The notes: generated by a model not told the origin, from the sequence alone. Counted from the first letter of the stretch, positions 2,364 to 17,723 are shown. The stretch: DNA of 42,421 nt from Bacteroidales bacterium (GCA_021158405.1 JAGGUP010000083.1:1-42421), one strand, 5' to 3'. Made by a program: numbers and translations.

Positions 2364-2390
2364 GGAGTATTGTTAATAATATCTCCTTTT
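2364..2390. terminator. Hairpin between convergent permease and acr3 genes
   Basis: GGAG-TATT (2364-2371) pairs with AATA-a-CTCC (2378-2386) with one bulged base. TTTT follows on the plus strand, and a run of T follows on the minus strand after a few bases (the A-run around 2352-2359). It lies at the convergent ends of two genes and overlaps the last codons of acr3, so it may stop transcription both ways. The stem is short and AT-rich, so confidence is moderate. Confidence 0.45.
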
Positions 2391-3443
2391 AAACCAAAAA
2401 GCCACATTTACTAAGGCTATCATTACCGGAACTTCTACTAAAGGTCCAACTACTGCGGCAAATGCTTCACCTGAATTCATTCCGAAAATAGCAATAGCAA
2501 CAGCAATGGCCAGTTCAAAATTATTACTGGCAGCTGTAAAAGATAAGGTTACCGATTTTTCATAGTTCGCGCCCATTTTTTTGCTCATAAAAAATGACAG
2601 CAAAAACATCATTACAAAGTAAATCAACAATGGAATGGCTATTAAAACCACGTCTAATGGGATTTTGATAATGTATTCTCCCTTTAATGAAAACATTACA
2701 ATAATCGTAAAAAGTAAGGCAATGAGTGTTAAAGGACTGATTTTAGGAATAAATTTAGTATGATACCATTGCTTGCTTTTGACTCGTATTAAAATAAATC
2801 GGGTTAAGAAACCTGCAATAAAAGGGATTCCCAAATAGATAAATACACTTTTTGCAATTTCACCAATTGTTATATTTTCAACTGCATTATTGGTTGGAAC
2901 ACCAAACCATCCGGGTAAAATAGCAATAAAGAAATAAGCATAAACCGAAAAGAATAAGACCTGAAAGATGGAATTGAAAGCAACCAGACCGGCGGCATAT
3001 TGTGTATCGCCTTTTGCAAGATCGTTCCACACAATGACCATTGCAATGCAACGTGCTAAACCAATCATGATGATTCCATACATATAGGGAAGATTCGCGT
3101 TGTTTTCCCCCGGAAATAATTTAAAGAAAATAATGGCCAAAGCAAACATCAAAATAGGGCCGATTATCCAATTTTGAATTAAAGATATGGTGAGGATTTT
3201 ATAATCTTTAAATACATCACCCAATTCTTCGTATTTGACTTTTGCCATAGGTGGATACATCATTAAAATTAAACCAATAGCAATAGGCAAATTTGTTGTG
3301 CTTTCAGGCGAAGGTTTTAATGAATCCCAAAATTCGGCAATGGCAGGAAATAAGTATCCAGAGAGGACTCCAATGGCCATAGCGAGAAAAATCCACAATG
3401 TTAAATAACGGTCTAAAAATTTAAGTCGTTTTTTTGATGGCAT
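2373..3443 (-). CDS. acr3: Arsenite efflux permease, ACR3 family
   Basis: A 356-residue inner-membrane protein with about ten hydrophobic helices, the usual ACR3 size. ACR3 proteins expel arsenite (sometimes antimonite) using the proton gradient. The helix-4 signature [16 protein letters not shown] is present, with Cys132 at the position known to be essential in characterised ACR3 proteins. The late helix with [15 protein letters not shown] carries the conserved glutamate. It is the last gene of a tight minus-strand unit (arsR-arsC-arsM-acr3), 24 bases after arsM, so it is expected to be expressed with the reductase and methyltransferase under ArsR control. The family is clear; substrate range beyond As(III) is inferred from the family. 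Confidence 0.95.
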
Positions 3444-3467: not shown

Positions 3468-4271
3468 TTACTGTTTTATTCCTGTCACAGTAATGCTAAA
3501 AATTCCTGTTTTATTTTTTTTAAATATTCTTAAATCATCCATACTAATATAGTTGAGCATAACAGTATTTGGGATTTCAACTTCCTTTTCCTTTTTTACA
3601 TCGATCTCTTTAAACTTATTTTCCTTAATAATTTGGAGGTAGTCGTTTTTTTGGATAGCCCCTGATACACAACCAGCATACATTTCAGCATCTTCTTTAA
3701 TCTTATCAGGAAGATTCCCTGAAATAACAATATCCGAAACACAAAAACGCCCATCGGGTTTCAGTACCCGATAGATTTCACTAAAAGCCTTTTGCTTATC
3801 TGGAACCAAATTTAAAACACAATTCGAAATAACAATATCAAATGAATTGTCAGCTAAAGGCATTTCTTCAATATCACCTTGAATAAAATCTACATTTAAG
3901 AAACCCAATTTTTGATTGTTTTTATTCGCTTTTTCAATCATCGCATCTGTAAAATCAATTCCTATAACTTTGCCTGATTCTCCAACGATTGATCGTGCAA
4001 CAAAACAATCATTTCCTGCACCCGAACCTAAATCTAAAACAGAATGCCCCTTCTTAATATGGGCAAATTCAGTTGGTATTCCACAGCCCAAGCCAAGATC
4101 AGCATCTTTATGATAGCCTTGTAAATTTGAATAGTCATCACTAAATATGGTATAATCAACCGTATCGCAACAGCCAGTACTTCCGCAACAAGATGTTTCG
4201 TTTTGTTCTTTTGGCTGATTAGCTATTTCAGTATATTTTTTTTTAACGATTGCTTTTAAGTCTTTACTCAT
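3468..4271 (-). CDS. arsM: Arsenite S-adenosylmethionine methyltransferase
   Basis: A 267-residue class I methyltransferase that methylates As(III) using SAM. SAM motif I (VLDLGSGAGND) is at residues 78-88, with GIDFTDAM following. The four cysteines needed in characterised ArsM enzymes can be placed: Cys35 in the N-terminal CC-rich segment, Cys63 (LGLGCGIP), Cys151 (ISNCVLNL) and Cys201 (AGCVSGA). Their spacings of 28 (35 to 63) and 50 (151 to 201) agree with the family. An extra CC pair (28-29) precedes them. The ATG overlaps the arsC stop by four bases, suggesting translational coupling. Methylation yields volatile or more toxic trivalent methyl species, which makes the ArsP-like permease at 9364-10407 a sensible partner. 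Confidence 0.93.
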   Translation of the reverse strand: MSKDLKAIVKKKYTEIANQPKEQNETSCCGSTGCCDTVDYTIFSDDYSNLQGYHKDADLGLGCGIPTEFAHIKKGHSVLDLGSGAGNDCFVARSIVGESGKVIGIDFTDAMIEKANKNNQKLGFLNVDFIQGDIEEMPLADNSFDIVISNCVLNLVPDKQKAFSEIYRVLKPDGRFCVSDIVISGNLPDKIKEDAEMYAGCVSGAIQKNDYLQIIKENKFKEIDVKKEKEVEIPNTVMLNYISMDDLRIFKKNKTGIFSITVTGIKQ

Positions 4272-4708
4272 AGTTTTGTTTTTATGTCATTGATATAAAA
4301 CTTATAAAAGGCATCTTTAATTGCATTGCGTGTTTTACGGAATTCATTCCAAATAAATTCTTCTGTTCCTTTTGCATCCGAAGGGTCGTCGAAGCCAATA
4401 TGCAATCGATGTTTTACCTTACCTAAAAAGGCAGGACAAACTTCGTTGGCACCACCACAAACCGTAATTACATAATCCCAAGATTTGTCAAGATATATAT
4501 CAATAGAATCGGAAGTGTGATGACTGATATCGATTCCAATATCTTTCATTACGGCAACAGCTTTTATATTTAATTTGCCCGAAGCTTCTGTTCCAGCCGA
4601 GCGAACAAATAGATTTTTATCAAATGATTCCAAGAAACCATGAGCCATTTGGCTACGACAGCTGTTTCCCGTACACAATACAAGTATCTTTATCTTATTT
4701 GCATTCAT
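4268..4708 (-). CDS. arsC: Thioredoxin-coupled arsenate reductase, LMW-PTP fold
   Basis: A 146-residue protein reducing arsenate to arsenite in the cytoplasm. The phosphatase-type P-loop CTGNSCRS begins at Cys12 with Arg18, which binds the oxyanion. Cys84 and Cys91 (VITVCGGANEVCPAF) are spaced like Cys82/Cys89 of the staphylococcal pI258 enzyme, so the three-cysteine relay that ends at thioredoxin is complete. The DDPSD loop (107-111) provides the general acid. This places it with the thioredoxin-linked class, not the glutaredoxin-linked E. coli type. It overlaps arsR upstream by 14 bases and arsM downstream by four, so the three genes are certainly co-transcribed. Confidence 0.94.
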   Translation of the reverse strand: MNANKIKILVLCTGNSCRSQMAHGFLESFDKNLFVRSAGTEASGKLNIKAVAVMKDIGIDISHHTSDSIDIYLDKSWDYVITVCGGANEVCPAFLGKVKHRLHIGFDDPSDAKGTEEFIWNEFRKTRNAIKDAFYKFYINDIKTKL

Positions 4709-5027
4709 AGCATTCTATATGTAATTGATTAAAAAATTCTTGAATCAAAGTCTGAAACTGAATGACTTTTTGAGGATTTAAACAATAATAGGTTTTAACG
4801 CCTTCCGTATGCCAATCGAGAAGTCCAATCGTTTTTAATTCTTTTAAGTGCTGATTTACTGTGGTTCTACTCAAAGGAAGCTCATCCGAAATATCTCCAG
4901 TGATACATCGCTTGCTAGCTACTAAGTATTGCAATATCTTTAATCGTGCAGGGTGAGCTAAAACTTTAAAAATAAGGGCTTTGTTGGTTAACTCTGAGTC
5001 GAATAATTCTGTTTTTGATTGTGCCAT
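4695..5027 (-). CDS. arsR: ArsR/SmtB-family repressor of unit A
   Basis: A 110-residue winged-helix repressor that should release DNA on binding As(III). The helix-turn-helix is at about 41-68 (ISDELPLSRTTVNQHLKELKTIGLL), followed by the wing ending in YYCLNP. Cysteines that may bind arsenite are Cys41 at the start of the DNA-binding region, Cys82 after the wing, and a C-terminal CYEC pair (106, 109). The classical ELCVCDL motif of E. coli ArsR is absent, so the sensing site must be built differently. It is first in the unit and is preceded by two copies of an 18-base palindrome covering its predicted promoter, pointing to autorepression. Confidence 0.93.
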   Translation of the reverse strand: MAQSKTELFDSELTNKALIFKVLAHPARLKILQYLVASKRCITGDISDELPLSRTTVNQHLKELKTIGLLDWHTEGVKTYYCLNPQKVIQFQTLIQEFFNQLHIECYECK

Positions 5028-5039
5028 TTCAATTTTATT

Positions 5040-5057
5040 TGACGCAAATATACGTCA
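5040..5057. promoter_or_regulatory. ArsR operator 1 enclosing the -7 box of unit A
   Basis: TGACGCAAATATACGTCA is an interrupted palindrome (arms TGACG/CGTCA plus an inner A/T match), 12 bases before the arsR ATG. Its centre, read on the minus strand, is TATATTTG (5045-5052), a perfect match to the Bacteroidota TAnnTTTG -7 box. A repressor sitting here would cover the promoter. No TTG -33 element is seen at the expected distance upstream. Confidence 0.7.
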
Positions 5058-5068
5058 TATATTTGTAT

Positions 5069-5086
5069 TAACGTAATAATACGTCA
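5069..5086. promoter_or_regulatory. ArsR operator 2 of unit A
   Basis: TAACGTAATAATACGTCA repeats the pattern of the 5040-5057 site (shared form TRACGYA-N4-TRCGTYA). The centres of the two sites are 29 bases apart, close to three helical turns, so two repressor dimers could bind the same face of the DNA. Confidence 0.6.
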
Positions 5087-5156: not shown

Positions 5157-5759
5157 TTATTTGGCAGCACAATCCATACAAACTTTTTTATCGCCTTTAA
5201 TACGACCATATTCCATAACAGTCATTTCGCCACATTCTTCGCAAACAAAACCATCAAAACTGTCTTTTTTAGGTTCGAGTTTGTAATCAAAAATTGGAGA
5301 AATATTAAGAAGCATCTCAGCTGGAGCATTCATAACATTGTTAACTAATGGGTCAACAACTTCAGCGGGAACTATACTTGCTGGTTTACCAATCATTCTG
5401 TAGTCAGTAAAAAATATTGTTTTTTTGTTATTGAGCATGGCTTCGGCTTTGGGTGTAACACGTACAGCTTTGCCAGTAGCTCGATCAACTACAGTTACAG
5501 CCCATTTTCCTTTGTATGTTTTTTTTATATTTCCTTTCCCAAAGGTTGTCCCCATGATAACCTGTAAGCCATCTGCATAACATGTAGCACAATGGTCGTC
5601 GCCTAAGTCAACAAATGCTAATAATTGACCGTCTTTTGCACGTTCAACGCCTAAAGCGTTCATTGCAGCTGCACCTACTCGCAAGCCCATTGGCATTGCT
5701 GGGCATTTATGTCCGTGAAATTTTTGCCCGAATTCGAGCCATTCGTTTGGATTTATCAT
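5157..5759 (-). CDS. FmdE-family protein with C-terminal zinc ribbon (copy 1)
   Basis: A 200-residue soluble protein of the family named after subunit E of formylmethanofuran dehydrogenase. The FmdE core opens with FHGHKCP (Cys19) and continues with DDHCATCYADG and GTTFGKGN. A C-terminal zinc ribbon is formed by CEEC (173/176) and CMDC (194/197). Compared with copy 2 (8497-9141) it has an additional cysteine, giving C57-x2-C60 where copy 2 has only the second. No formylmethanofuran dehydrogenase or methanogenesis gene is nearby, so the name is historical. Last gene of a five-gene unit and followed by a good terminator. Role unknown; metal binding or insertion is a fair inference from the Cys/His content and neighbours. 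Confidence 0.88.
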   Translation of the reverse strand: MINPNEWLEFGQKFHGHKCPAMPMGLRVGAAAMNALGVERAKDGQLLAFVDLGDDHCATCYADGLQVIMGTTFGKGNIKKTYKGKWAVTVVDRATGKAVRVTPKAEAMLNNKKTIFFTDYRMIGKPASIVPAEVVDPLVNNVMNAPAEMLLNISPIFDYKLEPKKDSFDGFVCEECGEMTVMEYGRIKGDKKVCMDCAAK

Positions 5760-5777
5760 AATTCTATAATTAAAAAT

Positions 5778-6674
5778 TTAATGAATAATTTGTTTATTGT
5801 CATCAACCGAAAATTCCGGTTGAATGGTTATATGCCCAATTTTATGATTGGCAAGAACCTCTTTTATTTTTGTTAATATCGTTTCAAATTCACTTATTTT
5901 AATGTCTTTTTTCAGATCAACATGTGCTTCAAACATAATATTGTGTTCATTTATTTGCCAGATATGTACGTGATGAATATTTTCGATTTCTGATATTAAT
6001 TCCACCTCAGAAACAATTTTAGGAAGCTCAATTTCTGTAGGAGTAAACTGCATGATAATACGAAGAGCAGCTTTAAAAATCCCCCAACTGGTATAAAGCA
6101 AATAAATAGCAATGGCAATAGAAAAAACGGCATCTACCCAATACCATTGCAAATATTTCATAGTCAATCCACCGACCAAAACTGCAATAGAAGTGAGCAT
6201 ATCGCTAAACAAATGCAGGTAGGCCGATTTCATATTCATATTATCGTGAGTGTCGTTACGAATAAATAGAACACTCAAACCATTTACGGCAATACTTGCA
6301 ATGGCTAACCAGATGACCCAATCGGCAGCAACTGTAATGGGATGAAAAAGGCGCTGGATTCCTTCGTAAAGAATAAAAAATGCCAGCACCATCAAGGTTG
6401 CTGAATTTATAAAGGCGGCAATAATTTCTGAGCGTTTAAAACCATAAGTTTGATTATCCGTTGCCTTTCTCTTTGTTAGTTTATTGGCAATGTAACTCAC
6501 CACGAGTGAAATTACATCGCTAAAGTTATGAGTGGCATCGCTAATAAGCGCCATACTCCCGGAGATTATTCCACCAATAAGTTCAGCTAGTGTAATTCCA
6601 ATATTAAGACCAATTGACCAACCTAAATTCTTACCACTTACTTCGTGGTGATGATGTTCTGTTTTGTTTCCCAT
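5778..6674 (-). CDS. Cation diffusion facilitator, zinc type (CzcD/ZitB-like)
   Basis: A 298-residue inner-membrane antiporter with six helices and a C-terminal cytoplasmic domain. The transport site is visible as His49-x3-Asp53 in helix 2 (SDATHNFSD) and His154-x3-Asp158 in helix 5 (HLFSD), the HD/HD set usual for Zn2+ (also Cd2+) exporters rather than Mn2+ ones. A HHHH stretch at 7-10 may bind metal at the N-terminus. The C-terminal domain (about 212-290) with HVHIWQ is the usual dimerising metal-sensing fold. It sits five bases after the porin gene and 18 before FmdE copy 1, so it belongs to unit C. Zinc-type specificity is inferred from motifs. Confidence 0.93.
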   Translation of the reverse strand: MGNKTEHHHHEVSGKNLGWSIGLNIGITLAELIGGIISGSMALISDATHNFSDVISLVVSYIANKLTKRKATDNQTYGFKRSEIIAAFINSATLMVLAFFILYEGIQRLFHPITVAADWVIWLAIASIAVNGLSVLFIRNDTHDNMNMKSAYLHLFSDMLTSIAVLVGGLTMKYLQWYWVDAVFSIAIAIYLLYTSWGIFKAALRIIMQFTPTEIELPKIVSEVELISEIENIHHVHIWQINEHNIMFEAHVDLKKDIKISEFETILTKIKEVLANHKIGHITIQPEFSVDDNKQIIH

Positions 6675-6679
6675 AATTC

Positions 6680-7675
6680 TTAGTTAAAAAAGATTTGAAC
6701 CTGTATGGATGCAAAATAATTCTGCAACTGACCGTTGTTTATTTGAAATCCGTTATCGACCATAATTTTTAGTTTATCTTTATTAAAAAGACAATTGTAT
6801 GCTAGATGAATTTCGGGTGCATCCGTTGTGGTTCCCATAATATCGTTGTATTTATTGAATGATGAAACCAGCTGGTTTTTACCTAGGTTTAAAGTGGCCA
6901 AAATGTAGTATCCGTCTGCAATGTTGCCATCTAAATTGGCGCGGAGGTATTCCGATTGTATTTCGAAGTTTTTAAGTTGAAGTTTTGCAAACAAATTATA
7001 ACGGAAATCGTTTCCCGAAAACAGCTCGCTGTCGGGAATTATTTTAAGCAATTGCAAATTGTCGGCTTTACGATACATTAGTGAATACCCAACTACCAAA
7101 TGATGATTGAAAGCGTACAGCTTGGTTTTATGCGTTAGCATTATTCCCGAATAATCGAGTCGGTATTCCTTTATTCCGTTTCCGTTAAAAACACCAAACC
7201 ACGATTCAATGATTTTGGTTTTGTTCTGCCACTTTATCTCTACACCAATATCGCGAACGCCCAAAGTTCCGTTTGGTATTAAAGCATTGATTACATCAGC
7301 CCGCTCAGTGAGAGGAATAATAGCATCAGATTGAAAACGCTGTAAGCTGTAATGAGGAATAAACTGCCCAAAGTTCAATCTGAATTGTTTCAAACGATAA
7401 AAACCTACGACATCTTGTAGTACAAATTTCTCGTTCTGAAAACTACTTAGTGTTGTTTGCACCTTAAAACCCCAGTTTTTATTAAATTCAGGAAAGGATT
7501 GTACCCAGAGTTTCATTCTTCGTATGGCAAAAGAATTTATATCATTAAAATTGCTTGTAAATCGTAATTGCGTATAACCATTCCATGCCACTTTGGGTGA
7601 ATCAGTGTGTTGAGCAAAAGATTGCACTGTTCCAATCAGCAAAAACAACAGCAGAATATGTTTGGGATTTCTCAT
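6680..7675 (-). CDS. Outer-membrane beta-barrel porin, OprO/P-like
   Basis: A 331-residue protein with a clear signal peptide (first 22 residues, ending QSFAQ) and alternating strand patterns up to a C-terminal aromatic ending (VQIFFN). The order of features, including NWGFKVQTTLSS, FRLNFGQFIPHYSLQRFQS and IPNGTLGVRDIGVEI, resembles phosphate-selective porin O/P and short-chain porins of Bacteroidota. It should form a channel in the outer membrane. It lies three bases after the TauE/SafE exporter gene and five before the CDF gene, so inner- and outer-membrane transport are encoded together. That would fit passage of an anion or metal across both membranes, but the substrate is not shown. Confidence 0.8.
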   Translation of the reverse strand: MRNPKHILLLFLLIGTVQSFAQHTDSPKVAWNGYTQLRFTSNFNDINSFAIRRMKLWVQSFPEFNKNWGFKVQTTLSSFQNEKFVLQDVVGFYRLKQFRLNFGQFIPHYSLQRFQSDAIIPLTERADVINALIPNGTLGVRDIGVEIKWQNKTKIIESWFGVFNGNGIKEYRLDYSGIMLTHKTKLYAFNHHLVVGYSLMYRKADNLQLLKIIPDSELFSGNDFRYNLFAKLQLKNFEIQSEYLRANLDGNIADGYYILATLNLGKNQLVSSFNKYNDIMGTTTDAPEIHLAYNCLFNKDKLKIMVDNGFQINNGQLQNYFASIQVQIFFN

Positions 7676-7678
7676 GAT

Positions 7679-8479
7679 TTAAGCAATAACACCATAAACC
7701 ATTTTAGCGGCAATCAGCAGCAATACAATGGCATAAACCACTTTGACTTGTTTCGATTTTGCCTTTTGAGTCATATAGCGGCCTCCCAATTGAGACCCAA
7801 TAATAACAGCCAAGACAACAATGGCAGTAAGCCACCAATTCATATGCCCTTGCGACATATGTCCCAAATATCCGGAAAAGGAAGAAAAGGTGACTACAAA
7901 AGCAGTTGTTGCGGCGGCCTCTTTTGTTTTATAACCCATCATCATAAGAATAGGAGCAATAATAAATCCGCCACCTAAACCTAACATACCACCGATAAAT
8001 CCAGCAGAAGAACCAACAAAAAAACCAATCAGGCTACGCTTTTTAAGCGACATCATTTGTTCGGGTTCTGCTTGTTTGGAAGCCCAAAGTATTCGTAGAG
8101 CGGCGGCAACAACCATTATTGCAAAGAGTATTTTTAATGTTTGTACCGGGACTCTGTCGCTGGTCATGGCTCCCAATGGCGAAGCAATTAAAGCTGTTAC
8201 AGCCATTACTGCGCCTCCTTTCCAGTCAACGAGTTTTTTACGGGCGAAAGGAATAAGTACTAGTAAGGTGTTTAATCCGTTTAATAATAAGCCTAAAGGT
8301 ATGGCTACGGCTACCATATCGAAGCCTGCCCAGTTTAAAACGGGAACATATACCATTCCGCCTCCTAAGCCCAGCATAGCAAAAATGAAGGAGGCTATGG
8401 CGATGATAAAAAAGACAATTGTGTAAAGCATAATTAATTTTTTTACAGAAGGTGGATGCCAACTTTTATTTGTTGACAT
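7679..8479 (-). CDS. TauE/SafE (TSUP) family anion exporter
   Basis: A 266-residue inner-membrane protein with about eight helices and the repeated glycine motif of the family (FAMLGLGGGMVYVP near the N-terminus and GGMLGLGGGFIIAP in the second half). TSUP proteins move sulfite, sulfoacetate, thiosulfate or similar small anions; specificity cannot be read from sequence. The first 16 residues (MSTNKSWHPPSVKKLI) are polar and could be an over-extension, since a second ATG at 8431 begins just before the first helix. It follows FmdE copy 2 by 17 bases, so a link between an FmdE protein and a sulfur-type anion exporter is suggested. Confidence 0.92.
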   Translation of the reverse strand: MSTNKSWHPPSVKKLIMLYTIVFFIIAIASFIFAMLGLGGGMVYVPVLNWAGFDMVAVAIPLGLLLNGLNTLLVLIPFARKKLVDWKGGAVMAVTALIASPLGAMTSDRVPVQTLKILFAIMVVAAALRILWASKQAEPEQMMSLKKRSLIGFFVGSSAGFIGGMLGLGGGFIIAPILMMMGYKTKEAAATTAFVVTFSSFSGYLGHMSQGHMNWWLTAIVVLAVIIGSQLGGRYMTQKAKSKQVKVVYAIVLLLIAAKMVYGVIA

Positions 8480-8496
8480 CCATCTTTCACAAAGTC

Positions 8497-9141
8497 TTAT
8501 TTATTTTCTGTTATTGGGTGATAAAATACATGTTCCGTTGGTTCCTGATTAGAGCAAGGAATACAAACTTTTTTACCCTCTTTTACTCTTAAGTAGCGTT
8601 CAAAGGTATATTCGTCGCATACTTCACATTTGGCTTTAGCAAAAGAGCCTTTCACTGGGGTGTAGTTAAAGTTCGGAAGCATCTCTATCGTGAAAAGTTC
8701 ATCAATTGATGCTGTCAACACTATATCAATTATATCTTGACTAACTTCGGTAGGAATATCAGAAGGCTCAACGCCTTTTTTACGGTATTTAAAAAAATCG
8801 TGAGGTGCTAGTTTTTCTTGAAATTCATTCTTTAAAAAGAACCGAACACCACCTTTTCCAGGATACCAAAATGTTGCTGCAACTTTTCCATAATTTAATT
8901 TTTCGATTAGTCCTTTACCAAAAGTTGCTCCTGTCGAAGACATTATTCCATCTTGCATACAGCCTTGCGGATGACCTACACCCATTTCTGATAAGACATG
9001 TAATTCATGGTCTTTACATCGTTCAATACCTAATTTTTCCATTGCCACGACGCCCATACGGTATCCAATAGGCATAAAAGGACATTGATGTCCATGAAAT
9101 TCATACGTCCAGTCCGGTACTTGAAATTTTTGTGTTTTCAT
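8497..9141 (-). CDS. FmdE-family protein with C-terminal zinc ribbon (copy 2)
   Basis: A 214-residue paralogue of the protein at 5157-5759. The N-terminal core begins YEFHGHQCP (Cys20) and includes GVGHPQGCMQDG (Cys61) and GATFGKGL. The zinc ribbon CEVC/CIPC uses Cys172, 175, 193 and 196, after which there is a tail of about 18 residues absent in copy 1. It is the first gene of unit C, so the unit starts and ends with an FmdE gene. The two copies differ clearly in sequence, so they look like separate functions rather than a recent duplication. Role unknown. Confidence 0.87.
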   Translation of the reverse strand: MKTQKFQVPDWTYEFHGHQCPFMPIGYRMGVVAMEKLGIERCKDHELHVLSEMGVGHPQGCMQDGIMSSTGATFGKGLIEKLNYGKVAATFWYPGKGGVRFFLKNEFQEKLAPHDFFKYRKKGVEPSDIPTEVSQDIIDIVLTASIDELFTIEMLPNFNYTPVKGSFAKAKCEVCDEYTFERYLRVKEGKKVCIPCSNQEPTEHVFYHPITENK

Positions 9142-9223: not shown

Positions 9224-9316
9224 TCATTCTGTTTTTCTCATTTTTACCATCTCGCCATTAAACTCACAGGCCTTTCCGCCATTCCAAACTTTAGCACTTA
9301 TTTTATATTCAAGCAT
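9224..9316 (-). CDS. Possible 30-residue protein or gene remnant
   Basis: An ATG-started frame of 30 codons ending in TGA, 47 bases after the ArsP-like permease gene. The product has an ordinary protein-like composition (MLEYKISAKVWNGGKACEFN at the start, then a lysine-rich end) with one cysteine. I do not recognise it. It could be a small member of unit B, the remaining start of a longer decayed gene, or chance. The rest of this 222-base gap (9142-9363) shows only the weak hairpin and the possible -7 box. Confidence 0.3.
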   Translation of the reverse strand: MLEYKISAKVWNGGKACEFNGEMVKMRKTE

Positions 9317-9363: not shown

Positions 9364-10407
9364 TTACATTACATAATTAAACACAAAGCCAACGATTACA
9401 ATCCCAATGGCAACAATGCCAACAAAAATGCTAATCAGTTGCCATTTGAGTACTTTTTTTAAGATGATGATTTCGGGAAGAGAGAGTGCAATAACCGACA
9501 TCATAAAAGCCAAAGCAGTACCAAGCGAAACGCCTTTTTCAATCAATACGCTGACGATTGGAATTATTCCTGCCGCATTAGAATACATTGGGATTCCTAT
9601 AAGTATTGCTAGGGGAACTCCATACCAATTTTCTTTACCTAAAAGAGCCGATAAAAAATCTTCGGGAACATATCCATGAGCTCCAGCACCAACGGCAATA
9701 CCAATTACAATGTAGATCCAGATTTTTCCAACAATCTCGGTAACGGCTTCGTAACCCGACTGAATTCGTTCGTAGAACGATGGTTTCTCTTCAATTTCGT
9801 CTTGATGATCCGCTTTTATCTGATAAACCCATTCGGCAACATATTTTTCCAAACCAAATTTCCCGATAATCCATCCCGATAAAATGGCAATTGTAAGTCC
9901 TGTGCCTACATAAATTAGCGCTACATTCCATCCAAAAAGTCCGACCAATAGCACTAAAGCTACTTCGTTAATCATTGGAGCTGCAATGAGAAAGGAAAAT
10001 GTGACTCCCAAAGGAACTCCGGATTCAACAAATCCTAAAAATAAAGGGATGGCTGAGCAAGAACAGAATGGGGTGATGATGCCGAGTAGGGAGGCTAAAA
10101 TATTTCCAGTAAAGAGCGATTTTCCTTCCAGAATTTTGCGAGTTTTCTTGGGAGTGAAAAAGGTTCGTAAAATTCCCACACCAAAAATGATGAGTATGAG
10201 CAATAGCATAACCTTGGGAACTTCAAAGATGAAAAAACGCAGTGTTTCAGTAAGATGTGTTCCTGCAACCAATCCAAATAGATCGTCAATGATAAAATTA
10301 GCCAATACTTGAAGATTCCAATAAGTGAGGATCCATAAAGGCAGAAGCAGTGCTGGAACAAACCAGCCATTCATATTTCTGTTTAATGTTAGTATTTTTT
10401 CTTTCAT
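9364..10407 (-). CDS. ArsP/YraQ-type permease (DUF318)
   Basis: A 347-residue inner-membrane protein with about eight to ten helices and the family motif TPFCSCSAIPLF (Cys115, Cys117), followed by SFLIAAPMINEVAL. A second motif, GIPMYSNAAGIIP, is in the C-terminal half. Members of this permease family include ArsP, which exports trivalent methylated or aromatic arsenicals. The frame stays open to an ATG at 10488, but that would overlap the previous gene by 38 bases and add a polar stretch. The ATG at 10407 has an A-rich leader and begins at the conserved region, so it is preferred. As the last clear gene of unit B it probably exports organoarsenicals, including those made by ArsM, but this is inference. 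Confidence 0.88.
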   Translation of the reverse strand: MKEKILTLNRNMNGWFVPALLLPLWILTYWNLQVLANFIIDDLFGLVAGTHLTETLRFFIFEVPKVMLLLILIIFGVGILRTFFTPKKTRKILEGKSLFTGNILASLLGIITPFCSCSAIPLFLGFVESGVPLGVTFSFLIAAPMINEVALVLLVGLFGWNVALIYVGTGLTIAILSGWIIGKFGLEKYVAEWVYQIKADHQDEIEEKPSFYERIQSGYEAVTEIVGKIWIYIVIGIAVGAGAHGYVPEDFLSALLGKENWYGVPLAILIGIPMYSNAAGIIPIVSVLIEKGVSLGTALAFMMSVIALSLPEIIILKKVLKWQLISIFVGIVAIGIVIVGFVFNYVM

Positions 10408-10450
10408 TTTTTCTTTTCGTAAAGAGCCGAACAATAGTTTTAAATTTTTT

Positions 10451-11149
10451 TTAGAAGAAAACGGTGATGATATAATAAATACCAACAATTATAAATAGTA
10501 TCGCAATTACTCTTCTAAACCAAAGTTCAAAAGTCTTGAGTTTATTATATACATTTCCTAGCGATCCAATACTATAGGCGATTAACCAGGCAAAAATTAT
10601 AACGGGGATTCCGGTAGCCAAGGCGAAAAATAGGGGTAAATACAAACCACTTGCACTACTAATGGTGATAGGTATTAACATACCGAAATAAAGCACACCA
10701 CTATAAGGGCAAAAGGCAAGCGCAAATACAATACCCAATAGAAGAATGCCCCAAAATCCGGTATTCGATTTATGCTCCATTTTTTCGGTTAGCGAAGCAA
10801 TGCCCGGGATTTTTAGTGTTAATATTCCGAGCATAAATAAACCTATGATTATTAGTAAGGGACCTAATATCTTTTCGCCCCAGACTTGAAAAAATCCAGC
10901 AATTTTAAATTGGCTTGCTCCAAAAAAGAAAATCAGACCCAAACCTGTATAGGTAATAGCCCTTCCCAGGGTATATACCAAACCATTGATAAATACTTTG
11001 CGCTGATTTTTCAGGTCTTTGCTAATGTACCCAATGGCAGTGATATTTGTGGCTAAAGGGCAGGGGCTAATGGCCGTCATAAGTCCCAAAATAAAGGCAG
11101 TTAGAATAGAAAACTGTGAATTCTCCAAAAATTGTTGTAATAATTCCAT
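10451..11149 (-). CDS. CcdA-like membrane protein, ArsG-type efflux candidate
   Basis: A 232-residue membrane protein of the CcdA/DsbD transmembrane superfamily with six or seven helices. The conserved Cys-Pro pairs SPCP (Cys30) and FCPYSG (Cys147) that carry electrons in CcdA are both present. In arsEFG-type operons, ArsG is a protein of this kind involved in resistance to aromatic arsenicals. The gene starts two bases after the stop of the ArsF-like lipoprotein gene, which carries a CxxC pair, so electron transfer between the two is plausible. Whether it mainly moves electrons or arsenicals cannot be decided here; the ArsG name is inferred from gene order. Confidence 0.8.
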   Translation of the reverse strand: MELLQQFLENSQFSILTAFILGLMTAISPCPLATNITAIGYISKDLKNQRKVFINGLVYTLGRAITYTGLGLIFFFGASQFKIAGFFQVWGEKILGPLLIIIGLFMLGILTLKIPGIASLTEKMEHKSNTGFWGILLLGIVFALAFCPYSGVLYFGMLIPITISSASGLYLPLFFALATGIPVIIFAWLIAYSIGSLGNVYNKLKTFELWFRRVIAILFIIVGIYYIITVFF

Positions 11150-11150
11150 T

Positions 11151-11585
11151 TTACATCAAAGAATCAATATTCGATTTTAATAAACTTTTCAATTGATCAG
11201 GATTTGTTATGGCATTTAAAAAGGCTTCGTTGGTTAAATCCACTTTTTTATCTCCCTTAATAATTAAAAGCGTTTGAAAACTAATATTGTATTTTTCAAC
11301 AAGAGCTTTATTGCTTTCTTCTTCTACATCTAAAGATTCAAAAACTACTTTATCACCATAATATTCCTTAATCGCACTACGTGTAACATTTTCAACGGCA
11401 ACACAAGTTTCGCAGCGTCGACTTGCATGAAAATAATATACTTTTAGATCATTATTTTCTATAGTATTTTCAGTCAAGATCTTCTTATTCGAATCATCTT
11501 TGGCAGGACCATTACAGCTAGTGATATTTAAGCTTAAAGTGGCTAATAGGATCAAAAAGCTAAATTTATAAACTAATTTTTTCAT
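11151..11585 (-). CDS. Thioredoxin-fold lipoprotein, ArsF-like
   Basis: A 144-residue protein with a lipoprotein signal (lipobox ITSC, acylated Cys24), followed by a short linker and a thioredoxin-like domain starting KVYYFHASRRCETC. The CETC pair (Cys58, Cys61) should be redox-active, and the later segment SFQTLLIIKG lies where thioredoxins carry the cis-proline loop, though the proline itself is missing. It should be anchored in the periplasm or outer membrane. Placement between the ArsE-like and ArsG-like genes matches the arsEFG order. A nitroreductase-type role on aromatic arsenicals has been proposed for that family; here it is inferred. Confidence 0.78.
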   Translation of the reverse strand: MKKLVYKFSFLILLATLSLNITSCNGPAKDDSNKKILTENTIENNDLKVYYFHASRRCETCVAVENVTRSAIKEYYGDKVVFESLDVEEESNKALVEKYNISFQTLLIIKGDKKVDLTNEAFLNAITNPDQLKSLLKSNIDSLM

Positions 11586-11600: not shown

Positions 11601-11864
11601 TTATTTGTTAATTATTTGAACCAATTCATCAATAGAAGGCACTCTGCCTTTAAGGACAATTTTTCCATCAACCACTAAGGCGGGAGTGGTCATAACTCCA
11701 TATTTCATGATTTCCACAATGTCTTCTACTTTAGTTAGCGTGGCGTCCGCACCGCTTTGTTCAATGGCTTGTTGAGTAGCTTTTTCTAATGCTTTGCATT
11801 TGGAGCATCCTGTACCTAAAATTTTTATTTCCATATTCGCCGGTTTTATATTCTGAAAGTCCAT
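11601..11864 (-). CDS. Small redox-active disulfide protein, ArsE-like
   Basis: An 87-residue thioredoxin-fold protein, or 77 residues if it begins at the second ATG (11834), the length usual for the MTH895/TM0996 family of small redox disulfide proteins. The active CxxC is GTGCSKC (Cys20, Cys23 from the first ATG), and MTTPALVVDGK supplies the cis-proline loop. The first ATG has a more A-rich leader, so both starts are possible. No signal peptide, so it is cytoplasmic. As the first gene after arsR2 it corresponds to ArsE by position. Confidence 0.82.
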   Translation of the reverse strand: MDFQNIKPANMEIKILGTGCSKCKALEKATQQAIEQSGADATLTKVEDIVEIMKYGVMTTPALVVDGKIVLKGRVPSIDELVQIINK

Positions 11865-11938: not shown

Positions 11939-12241
11939 TTAAATATTGAAAAAGCCCGCCAAAAGTTCTTTAGCCTCATCCCAGGCTTCTTTATTTAGGC
12001 AGTACTTGATTTTTGGTAATTCAATTTCCCCCTGAATGAGTCCAGCGTCTTTAAGTTCCTTTAAATGTTGCGAGAGAGTAGATTTTGCAATTGGTAAATC
12101 CATTGTTAAATCGCCGCTATAGCAGCAAGATTGTTTAGAAAGAAGTTCCAAAACGTAGATGCGAATTGGATGACTTAAGGCTTTCGCGTATCGTGCTAAT
12201 TTCTTTTGTTTGCTGGAAGGAATTTCAATTTCATTCATCAT
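11939..12241 (-). CDS. ArsR/SmtB-family repressor of unit B
   Basis: A 100-residue winged-helix repressor. The recognition segment is IAKSTLSQHLKELKDAGLI (51-69). Possible metalloid ligands are the Cys39-Cys40 pair and Cys81 in the wing sequence KIKYCLN, which align with Cys41 and Cys82 of the ArsR at 4695-5027; it lacks that protein's C-terminal CYEC. The shared cysteines suggest a common sensing site in both repressors. It is the first gene of unit B, with 74 bases before the ArsE-like gene, and its start codon touches a palindrome that is probably its own operator. The ligand (As(III) or methylarsenite) is not determined. Confidence 0.9.
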   Translation of the reverse strand: MMNEIEIPSSKQKKLARYAKALSHPIRIYVLELLSKQSCCYSGDLTMDLPIAKSTLSQHLKELKDAGLIQGEIELPKIKYCLNKEAWDEAKELLAGFFNI

Positions 12242-14940: not shown

Positions 14941-15147
14941 TCAGGCGGTTTTTTTTGATTTGTGATTTTTGTGATCATACTGAATTGAATTCATATCGAA
15001 TCTTAAAGAGCAGCTTGAGCACGATCCACTTGCGCAACTGGAACAACCTTTATTATTAGTCGCCGGCTTGAAAAATTCTATGCTCTTGTGAATAATATGA
15101 AGAGCTGTAATTAGCAATATCAGATAAACAATAATTTCTTGTACCAT
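14941..15147 (-). CDS. FeoB-associated Cys-rich membrane protein
   Basis: A 68-residue protein with one N-terminal helix (3-20) and a CxxC-x4-CxxC cluster (Cys35, 38, 43, 46) followed by a His/Lys-rich tail. Small Cys-rich proteins of this type regularly follow feoB in Bacteroidota and take the position of FeoC. The frame stays open upstream to 15237, but that part overlaps feoB; the ATG at 15147, two bases past the feoB stop, gives the known family form. The cluster may bind iron or sense redox state. Confidence 0.88.
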   Translation of the reverse strand: MVQEIIVYLILLITALHIIHKSIEFFKPATNNKGCSSCASGSCSSCSLRFDMNSIQYDHKNHKSKKTA

Positions 15148-15149
15148 AA

Positions 15150-17723
15150 TTAAAGGATTAAACTTCCGATTTGAAAAACAAGGAAAGACAATACCCAAGC
15201 AAGACCAGTAGAATAAACCACTAAGAATCCAGCCCATTTCCAGCTTCCCGATTCTCTTTTAACAACAGCTACAACAGCAATACATGGAAAATATATCAAG
15301 ACAAAGATTAAAAAGGAAATAGCGACCAAAGGTGTAAAAATTGGTTCGCCTTTCTTTTTTCCGTCTTCGTATTTTGCATTTCGAAGGCGTTCAGTTAAGA
15401 CTTCAGGTTCTTCTTCTGAATCTGCTTGATAAAGCACACCGATAGTACTTACTACAATTTCTTTAGCTGCAGCTCCGGCAACAAGCGCAACACCCATTTT
15501 CCAATCGAATCCTAAAGGAGCAATGGCAGGTTCGATAAATTTCCCAAGTTTTCCAATATAACTACCTCCTTGTCGCTCACTTTCCTTTGCTAGTTCTAGG
15601 TTATGAATTTTTAATTGGAAATCATGTTCAAGTGTTTTTTGTTCTATTTTCTGTAGGCCAGGAGTTAGGATGAGTGCATTATCATATTGCATTTGTACCT
15701 GTTGAATTTGTTCATCATAGTTCTGGCTATAGGAAATGTTTTGAGGAAAATAACCTGCAGCCCAAATAATAATGGAGGCAATAAGAATTATTCCGCCCAT
15801 CTTTTGAAGGTATTGTTTTCCTTTAAACCACATATGTTTTGTGGTGTTTCGTATAGTGGGAATTCGATAAGGAGGAAGCTCCATTACAAAAGGAGATTCG
15901 GCTGATTTAAAAATGGTTTTTTTGAAGATTATGGCCACTAAGATTGCCACTAAAATTCCAAAGGCATAAATACTAAACAAAACAGTACCTGCCATAGTTG
16001 GGAAGAAAGCCCCTACAATTAAAATGTAAACTGGAAGTCTGGCAGAACAAGACATAAAAGGATTTATGAGCATGGTAAGCAAACGGTCGTTTCTGTTTTC
16101 GATGGTTCTAGTAGCCATAATTGCAGGAACGTTGCATCCAAAACCCATAAGCATCGGAATAAAGGATCGGCCGTGGAGACCGATTTTATGCATCAACTTA
16201 TCCATAATAAATGCAACGCGAGCCATATATCCTGTATCTTCCATTAAACTGATGAAAAAGAAAAGAATGAGGATATTGGGTAGAAATACAATAACACCTC
16301 CTACGCCGCCAATAATGCCATCGATTAACAAATCTTTAAGCATGCCGTCAGTCATATTCGTCCTTAGGATTTCACTCAAAAAAGTAACGCCACTATCAAT
16401 CCAGTTCATTGGATATTCACCCAGACGAAAAGTGGTATAAAACATCAGCCACATAAAACCTAAAAAAACAGGAAAAGCAAAAATTTTATTAGTTAATATA
16501 GTGTCTATCATATGGACATTTTCCCATTTTCCGGTAGGTCCTGGTTTTAATGTTTCTTTGAGCGCTCCGGCAATGAAAGCGTATTTTGAATCCGCAATAA
16601 GAGATTCCGGATCTTCTTTAAATGTTTTTCGCAGTATTTGCTGTGCTTTTTTGGTGACATGTTTTATTCGATCTCCATTGGGGCACTTGGTAATTCGCTC
16701 TTTTGTAACATCATCGTTTTCAAGTAATTTGATGGATAAAAAGCGAGAAGAAATTAAATCGGTAAGATTGTAATTCTCTTTTTGTTTAATTTCTGTTTGT
16801 ATTAGTTTGATTGCATCTTCGATATACAAGCCGTAATTGATATGAATATGTCTTACTGTTTTATCTCGATCTTCAAAAACATCGATAATTGTGTCGAATA
16901 ATTCTTTTAACCCTAGGCCTCTTTTTCCGTTGGTGGGAACCATGGGTATCCCAATCATTTTACCAAGCGAAACATAGTCAAATTGATCTCCCCGTTTTGT
17001 TAGCTCATCCCACATATTTAAGGCCATTACTACCTTAATATCCATGTCGATAAGCTGAGTAGTTAAAAACAGGTTGCGCTCTAAACTAGAACTGTCTACT
17101 ACATTAAGCACAACATCAGGAGCTTGCTCAAAAACATAATTCCGCACATACAACTCTTCTGGTGTATAATGTGTTATTGAATAAGTGCCGGGTAAATCGA
17201 TTAAGTTAAATTGATATCCATTTTGATAGAAACGGGCTTCCTTTGCTGCAACAGTGACACCGGTATAATTTCCTACATGTTCTTTAGAATTGGATGCAAA
17301 ATTGAATAAACTTGTTTTACCACTGTTTGGATTCCCAACCAAGGCCACATTTATTATTTTATCTTTTCGAATGTGATTATGTTTATCCTCTCTGTGCATG
17401 CGTCCGTATCTGTGCGCATGATGCATATGACCGTGCTTATAAATTTCACCTTCCATTGTGCCATGATATCCATTTTGTTTTATACGACCAGGTTCATTTT
17501 CGTAAATGACTTCAATCATTTTTGCTTCCTGAGCGCGTAAGGAAATATCATAGCCCATGATTTTATACTCAATGGGATCTTGGAGAGGAGCTTTCTTGAT
17601 AACGCGTACTTTTTTACCGACAACAAATCCCATTTCGATAATGCGTTTACGGAACGCACCACGACCCTTTACTTTTACTATAATTCCTGTTTCGCCTTGT
17701 GTAAGGTCAAAAAGTGATTTCAT
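15150..17723 (-). CDS. feoB: Ferrous iron transporter, FeoA-FeoB fusion
   Basis: An 857-residue inner-membrane Fe(II) importer. Residues 1-74 are a FeoA (SH3-like) domain fused to the N-terminus. A His-rich linker (about 83-120, eleven His) joins it to the G domain: G1 GNPNSGKTS (130-138), G2 in NYTGVTV, G3 DLPGT (176-180), G4 NMWD (236-239). Two Gate/Nucleoside-recognition blocks of helices follow, with a charged periplasmic insert (about 650-740). Fusion of FeoA to FeoB is common in Bacteroidota. The ATG abuts an 18-base palindrome and a -7 box, suggesting iron-dependent repression. It forms a unit with the Cys-rich protein. Confidence 0.97.
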   Translation of the reverse strand: MKSLFDLTQGETGIIVKVKGRGAFRKRIIEMGFVVGKKVRVIKKAPLQDPIEYKIMGYDISLRAQEAKMIEVIYENEPGRIKQNGYHGTMEGEIYKHGHMHHAHRYGRMHREDKHNHIRKDKIINVALVGNPNSGKTSLFNFASNSKEHVGNYTGVTVAAKEARFYQNGYQFNLIDLPGTYSITHYTPEELYVRNYVFEQAPDVVLNVVDSSSLERNLFLTTQLIDMDIKVVMALNMWDELTKRGDQFDYVSLGKMIGIPMVPTNGKRGLGLKELFDTIIDVFEDRDKTVRHIHINYGLYIEDAIKLIQTEIKQKENYNLTDLISSRFLSIKLLENDDVTKERITKCPNGDRIKHVTKKAQQILRKTFKEDPESLIADSKYAFIAGALKETLKPGPTGKWENVHMIDTILTNKIFAFPVFLGFMWLMFYTTFRLGEYPMNWIDSGVTFLSEILRTNMTDGMLKDLLIDGIIGGVGGVIVFLPNILILFFFISLMEDTGYMARVAFIMDKLMHKIGLHGRSFIPMLMGFGCNVPAIMATRTIENRNDRLLTMLINPFMSCSARLPVYILIVGAFFPTMAGTVLFSIYAFGILVAILVAIIFKKTIFKSAESPFVMELPPYRIPTIRNTTKHMWFKGKQYLQKMGGIILIASIIIWAAGYFPQNISYSQNYDEQIQQVQMQYDNALILTPGLQKIEQKTLEHDFQLKIHNLELAKESERQGGSYIGKLGKFIEPAIAPLGFDWKMGVALVAGAAAKEIVVSTIGVLYQADSEEEPEVLTERLRNAKYEDGKKKGEPIFTPLVAISFLIFVLIYFPCIAVVAVVKRESGSWKWAGFLVVYSTGLAWVLSFLVFQIGSLIL

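Follow-up and report, generated by a model that had tools for sequence, protein, structure and literature searches.

The FmdE family takes its name from formylmethanofuran dehydrogenase, a name that misleads annotation in bacteria making no methane. The locus described here raises the question of what two such proteins do in an operon of a Bacteroidales bacterium that also codes for a porin and two membrane transporters and lies among arsenic resistance genes. The window, i.e., the whole stretch of DNA that was analysed, comprises 42,421 nucleotides and belongs to a draft genome of 2.9 Mb, where the operon is found on contig C11. As early as 2010, gene context had led to the suggestion of a metal role for the FmdE family at large: most genes of the family were noted to adjoin genes for metal-ion transporters, and a possible part in metal transport was proposed (Axelrod, 2010; PMC2954224). 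A survey of the transporters of ars operons makes no reference to TauE/TSUP, FmdE, or CDF proteins in its main text (PMC4435449). A literature search limited to open-licence papers, and hence weak as evidence, yielded no paper linking FmdE to arsenic beyond one passing match, and no description of an FmdE–TSUP set. The results presented below indicate that this set is probably an arm of metalloid resistance. The FmdE–TSUP pair, present in ars operons and also on plasmids of Enterobacteriaceae and of a haloarchaeon, provides a direct, testable lead to the function of two families that are little understood, and to a part of metalloid resistance that has gone unrecognised.

Organization of the operon and its surroundings

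An earlier note, made from the sequence alone, had described a five-gene FmdE–TSUP–porin–CDF–FmdE operon. Translation of the window confirmed five minus-strand open reading frames (ORFs; Table 1) in the order fmdE1, TSUP, porin, CDF, and fmdE2, separated by gaps of 17, 3, 5, and 18 bases, and the set recurs in many genomes. The family assignments of the note have been borne out as well. Both FmdE products match PF02663 (91.7 and 98.3 bits, E 5e-26 and 5e-28; curated cut-off 22.9), the TSUP product matches TauE/TSUP PF01925 (160.6 bits against a cut-off of 32.6; E 6e-47), the porin product Porin_O_P PF07396 (E 2e-11), and the CDF product both Cation_efflux PF01545 (E 1e-51) and the NCBIfam model TIGR01297 (251 bits). 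The HxxxD motifs of the CDF translation read HNFSD and HLFSD, a zinc-type pattern, and the TSUP translation is devoid of any cysteine. FmdE1 and FmdE2 share 38% identity and are the only PF02663 proteins of the draft genome. As the note had stated, nothing of formylmethanofuran metabolism is near: no fmd/fwd catalytic genes were found among the window ORFs or among the annotated neighbours of the plasmid matches, and a link of the unit to methanogenesis was dropped. The single terminator assigned to the operon is present as a hairpin past fmdE2, but it is only suggestive because hairpins of such kind are frequent by chance in the region (13 sites vs. 6.6 expected in shuffles).

Table 1. Features of the arsR2–acr3 region, listed in the direction of the minus strand.
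Feature	Coordinates	Strand	Remarks
arsR2, ArsR/SmtB-family regulator	11939-12241	-	Pfam, NCBIfam
arsE-type small thioredoxin	11601-11864	-	TIGR00412, passes cut-off
Thioredoxin-like protein of the arsG/arsE cluster	11151-11585	-	Lipoprotein-like start; no Pfam match
arsG-family (CcdA/DsbD-like) transporter	10451-11149	-	NF040495, over cut-off
arsP-type permease	9364-10488	-	PF03773
Candidate osmC remnant	9224-9316	-	30-codon ORF in the 222-base arsP–fmdE1 gap
fmdE1	8497-9141	-	214 aa; PF02663 core and C4 zinc finger; FHGHQC ... HPQGCMQDG
TSUP (TauE/SafE-type) membrane transporter	7679-8479	-	266 aa
Outer-membrane porin, Porin_O_P (OprP-like) family	6680-7675	-	331 aa
CDF cation exporter	5778-6674	-	298 aa; HxxxD motif in both TM2 and TM5, read as zinc-type
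fmdE2	5157-5759	-	200 aa; PF02663 core and C4 zinc finger; FHGHKCPAMP, DDHCATCYADG (CxxC)
Terminator-like hairpin past fmdE2	5131-5106	-	11 pairs
Candidate ArsR1 operator upstream of arsR1	5040-5086	.	Two ACGT-type dyads, 29 bases apart
arsR1, ArsR/SmtB-family regulator	4695-5027	-	NCBIfam
arsC, LMW-phosphatase-type arsenate reductase	4268-4708	-	
arsM-type methyltransferase	3468-4271	-	
acr3 arsenite exporter	2373-3443	-	G000:C11:2400-3425, 445 bits, over TIGR00832 cut-off

The placement of the unit between two arsenic operons has been confirmed, head to tail. The upstream operon is arsR2–arsE–trx–arsG–arsP and the downstream one arsR1–arsC–arsM–acr3, and since the 14 genes that begin with arsR2 and end with acr3 share one orientation, the stretch constitutes a one-direction metalloid island. 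With respect to the canonical ars operons (arsR, arsC, acr3, and arsM, or the arsP/arsG/arsE clusters), the FmdE unit adjoins arsR, is co-oriented, and in some genomes is interleaved with them. No inverted repeat common to the arsR1 operator region and the start of fmdE1 or arsR2 was found. The small ORF between arsP and fmdE1 begins MLEYKISAKVWNGGKA, and over 16 residues from its start it is similar to the N-terminus of OsmC, a likeness that is suggestive only, given its E value of 5e-4 in a small database; the ORF is possibly a degraded osmC gene. The OsmC proteins that it resembles are encoded next to CDF in two loci (L053 and L106) whose ars clusters also contain arsP, arsE, trx, and arsG. 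Together with the OsmC gene of Sulfuricella (see below), this is in keeping with an ancestral locus where the FmdE unit followed the arsenic operon without a break. Elsewhere in the window (15150-17723), a FeoA–FeoB fusion gene is followed by a small Cys-containing ORF (14941-15237).

Conservation of the FmdE2–TSUP pair

A scan for FmdE2 with one genome per species gave 80 loci, of which 76 could be scored for neighbours. They belong mainly to Bacteroidota, with others in Ignavibacteriales, Kapabacteria, Chlorobiota, Calditrichota, Cloacimonadota, Spirochaetes, a Gammaproteobacterium, and further taxa; some of these labels may be wrong because many of the genomes are metagenome bins. Within five genes of FmdE2, TSUP was present in 62 of the 76 loci, the porin in 40, CDF in 24, a 196-residue TetR protein of one family in 30, and any of ACR3, ArsC, ArsM, or ArsG also in 30, counts in which individual neighbours can be missed, since genes were assigned with a simple longest-ORF script and BLASTP. 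Where the sequence extends for 3.5 kb or more on both sides of FmdE2 (39 loci), TSUP belongs to the tight co-directional run of FmdE2 in 32, and ars genes are present on the locus in 23. In the source genome, five TSUP genes score above the cut-off, so that the chance of finding one within 8 kb of a given gene is about 3%. The genes described in the earlier note do occur together elsewhere, and all five families are present in two loci (L043 and L028, with CDF after FmdE2 rather than before). Two cultured relatives, Prolixibacter denitrificans and P. bellariivorans (L033 and L036), have a similar layout. The conserved core is the FmdE2–TSUP pair; the porin, CDF, and FmdE1 are optional, and the five-gene set is one variant.

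Some loci show additional genes. In four of them (L026, L029, L111, and L112), three ORFs of about 430, 350, and 1030 residues, sizes that would suit an RND efflux system, lie beside the FmdE unit. In L068, L072, and L090, the ArsP permease appears to be split into two half-size genes adjoining FmdE2, and the first of these loci also codes (10-663) for an FmdE-like protein with a signal-peptide-like start and a weak PF02663 match, adjoining the split ArsP permease and FmdE2. Such weak matches exist in other genomes of the genus of the window as well.

Linkage to arsenic resistance genes

The interleaving with ars genes takes several forms. Examples are the runs arsC–acr3–TSUP–porin–fmdE2 (L063; gaps -17, 4, 3, and 22), arsR–arsC–acr3–TSUP–porin–..–fmdE2 (L051), arsR–porin–arsC–acr3–TSUP–fmdE2–CDF (L065), and arsR–TSUP–fmdE2–arsC–acr3 (L081), in all of which TSUP and FmdE2 are part of one co-directional run that includes arsC and acr3 and whose gaps are mostly short. 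In another member of the genus of the window (L107), TSUP–porin–CDF–fmdE2 is found directly behind arsR–arsC–acr3–arsR. This recurrent placement was quantified in 29 genomes picked mainly for their long flanks, which contain 24 ACR3 copies over the cut-off. Fourteen of these lie within 10 kb of FmdE vs. 0.15 expected under random placement, an excess of about ninetyfold, and 17 lie within 20 kb vs. 0.31 expected, although an exact P value for this closeness is optimistic because the choice of genomes was made with their neighbourhoods already in view. Co-occurrence at the genome level was dropped as evidence: many Bacteroidota have ACR3 in any case (248 of 394 sampled genomes vs. 23 of the 29 FmdE2 genomes), so that only its physical closeness to FmdE counts.

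The linkage is not exclusive. About 40% of the FmdE2 loci have no ars gene within reach, and a TetR–(FmdE1)–TSUP–porin–FmdE2 unit without a nearby ars gene recurs in several genomes. Since many of the former loci have a TetR gene of their own, the unit is not strictly tied to arsenic, and the TetR-bearing copies suggest that it also has a life of its own. In a phylogeny obtained by a quick tree method, the FmdE2 clade (82 rows, support 100) and the FmdE1 clade (20 rows, support 93) both contain ars-linked copies scattered through them, and the ars linkage requires at least 34 changes on the tree, a number inflated by missing flanks. The detoxification or homeostasis system for a metal or a sulfur or metalloid anion proposed in the earlier note is thus supported in part, in that its genes recur together in the company of metal and metalloid efflux genes, most often for arsenic. 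In summary, the link to ars genes is well supported; the substrate and the mechanism discussed below are inferred.

Fold and metal site of the FmdE proteins

The AlphaFold model of FmdE2 (mean pLDDT 94) has the FmdE fold, matching the solved structure 2GVI (Z 22.5, rmsd 1.9, 194 residues) and then 2GLZ and 3D00. Beyond the FmdE family the structure comparison gave no clear match; the next row, a domain of phosphoglycerate dehydrogenase (Z 5.5), may reflect only a common arrangement. The core of the fold has been described as circularly permuted thioredoxin-like, and the zinc ligands of 2GVI are His16, His18, Cys20, and Cys61, with an unexplained ligand at 1.8 Å from the sulfur of Cys61 (PMC2954224). 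In the alignment, His15, His17, Cys19, and Cys60 of FmdE2 fall on these ligands, and all four are invariant in 47 sequences (one of them an FmdE1 row), i.e., a His-His-Cys site with a distal Cys. The idea of the earlier note that FmdE proteins bind or deliver a metal is consistent with this solved relative, whose four metal ligands are all kept.

FmdE2 shares with the three solved proteins the fold, the metal ligands, and the C-terminal zinc finger (PMC2954224), and its clade differs from them in an extra conserved cysteine. This is Cys57, which falls on a Met of 2GVI, is kept in at least 90% of the rows when the same 47 sequences are aligned, and forms a CxxC with Cys60 at the start of the modelled helix 59-69, the second Cys being the one aligned with a metal ligand. 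Another difference is the setting of the window FmdE genes, which have TSUP, porin, and CDF genes instead of formylmethanofuran dehydrogenase genes as neighbours. The FmdE2-clade motifs listed are all HCA(T/H)CxxDG, while most FmdE1 proteins have HPQGCMQDG, and a divergent extra copy (L028_4), outside the FmdE2 clade, has HGAQC. A third cysteine near the metal would suit either the binding of As(III) by three thiols or a redox pair. The CxxC as a mark of arsenic-linked FmdE proteins was ruled out by those of plasmid ars islands, which lack it.

Possible functions of the module

The best explanation of these data, for which we see about an even chance, is that the operon is an accessory arsenic/thiol-metalloid module of the ars island, built on the FmdE2–TSUP core and working by capture and export. 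From the gene set, its conservation, its ars-operon placement, the fold, and the conserved ligand residues, all of them observed, we infer what FmdE2 binds, how the substrate flows, in which direction it is transported, and what CDF and the porin contribute, as follows. FmdE2, cytoplasmic and, like its solved relatives, perhaps dimeric, would capture either As(III) itself or its adduct with a thiol or sulfur by the cysteines of its His2Cys2 zinc site and CxxC, possibly with an exchange of zinc for arsenic. TSUP and then the porin would be the way out for what is captured, or for a sulfur oxyanion freed from it; CDF would export zinc displaced by, or accompanying, the arsenic; and FmdE1 would be a second, related binder. 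Points against this reading are the cysteine-free TSUP of the window, the lack of the CxxC in the FmdE proteins of plasmid ars islands, and the loci that have no ars genes within reach or have a TetR gene nearby. The narrower proposal that FmdE2 is a new binder of As(III) or thioarsenic, with a zinc site and a CxxC, handing its cargo to TSUP, is tentative and, as it stands, rather unlikely. ArsD is an arsenite metallochaperone with ArsA as its partner; FmdE2 would resemble it in the proposed role only, the cytoplasmic cysteine-based capture of As(III), and its would-be partner is TSUP. If true, the proposal would mean the first defined function of the large FmdE family outside methanogenesis, the first metalloid role for TSUP, and one more route of efflux in addition to those by ACR3 and ArsP.

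The main rival, which we regard as unlikely, is that the unit handles sulfite, thiosulfate, or sulfide-derived compounds arising from reactions among arsenic, thiols, and sulfide, e.g., in thioarsenate turnover; TSUP would export a sulfur oxyanion with the porin as its outlet, FmdE2 would be the thiol/zinc enzyme making it, and arsenic itself would not be carried. It owes this rank to the characterised members of TSUP, whose known substrates are sulfur compounds and not arsenic, which counts against the arsenic reading, and to the rhodanese, YeeE-type sulfur transporter, OsmC, and small thioredoxin genes found among the neighbours in several loci. In addition, the density bonded in 2GVI to the equivalent of Cys60 hints at a covalent intermediate. 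However, no sulfur-oxidation or sulfonate genes were found to recur beside the unit, and TSUP–FmdE2 is tied to arsC/acr3 operons. The known TauE/SafE exporters, which share PF01925 with the window TSUP, serve sulfonate and sulfite metabolism, whereas the latter is paired with FmdE in ars operons.

Zinc or divalent-metal homeostasis, with FmdE as a zinc buffer or chaperone, CDF as the main exporter, and the ars genes only co-inherited in metal-polluted habitats, would account for the zinc held by the metal site of the solved relatives, the HD-HD zinc-type motif of CDF, the metal-ion transporter genes that adjoin most FmdE-family genes (PMC2954224), and the FmdE–TSUP–CDF–ZIP order of Halorubrum plasmid p163, near which no arsenic efflux or reductase gene is annotated. 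It is nevertheless improbable because CDF is not core, as only 24 of the 76 loci have it close to FmdE2, TSUP is an anion-type transporter, and loose co-resistance would not explain why the unit is so tightly interleaved with arsC and acr3. Finally, a stand-alone detoxification set that responds to a small organic electrophile, or to some other compound sensed by TetR, and was recruited into some ars islands would agree with the TetR-bearing units devoid of close ars genes and with the many changes of ars linkage on the FmdE tree, but is very improbable, as no TetR gene adjoins the unit in the window and arsR directly precedes several of the copies.

Plasmid and distant copies

Relatives of FmdE with about 24-41% identity were found on 30 plasmids. 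In Citrobacter amalonaticus Y19, genes for an arsP-like permease, thioredoxin, and rhodanese precede FmdE, CDF, and TSUP, which are followed by ACR3, ArsC, ArsA, ArsD, ArsC, and a regulator. Another example is Sulfuricella pSCD, with ArsC, an RND pump, thioredoxin, CcdA, OsmC, TSUP, and FmdE and, further on, CDF; here the OsmC gene stands immediately before TSUP–FmdE. Together with the Halorubrum set, these proteobacterial copies imply that the FmdE–TSUP partnership is wider than the Bacteroidota unit. Phages gave no match, and E. coli genomes none to the enterobacterial plasmid copy. Large plasmids of Citrobacter, Klebsiella, and Enterobacter, many of them from clinical isolates, carry an FmdE relative, and in the enterobacterial copy examined (L099 6789-11368) FmdE is followed by TSUP among insertion sequences, with genes for Dps, an ArsR-family regulator, and an FAD-dependent oxidoreductase as neighbours.
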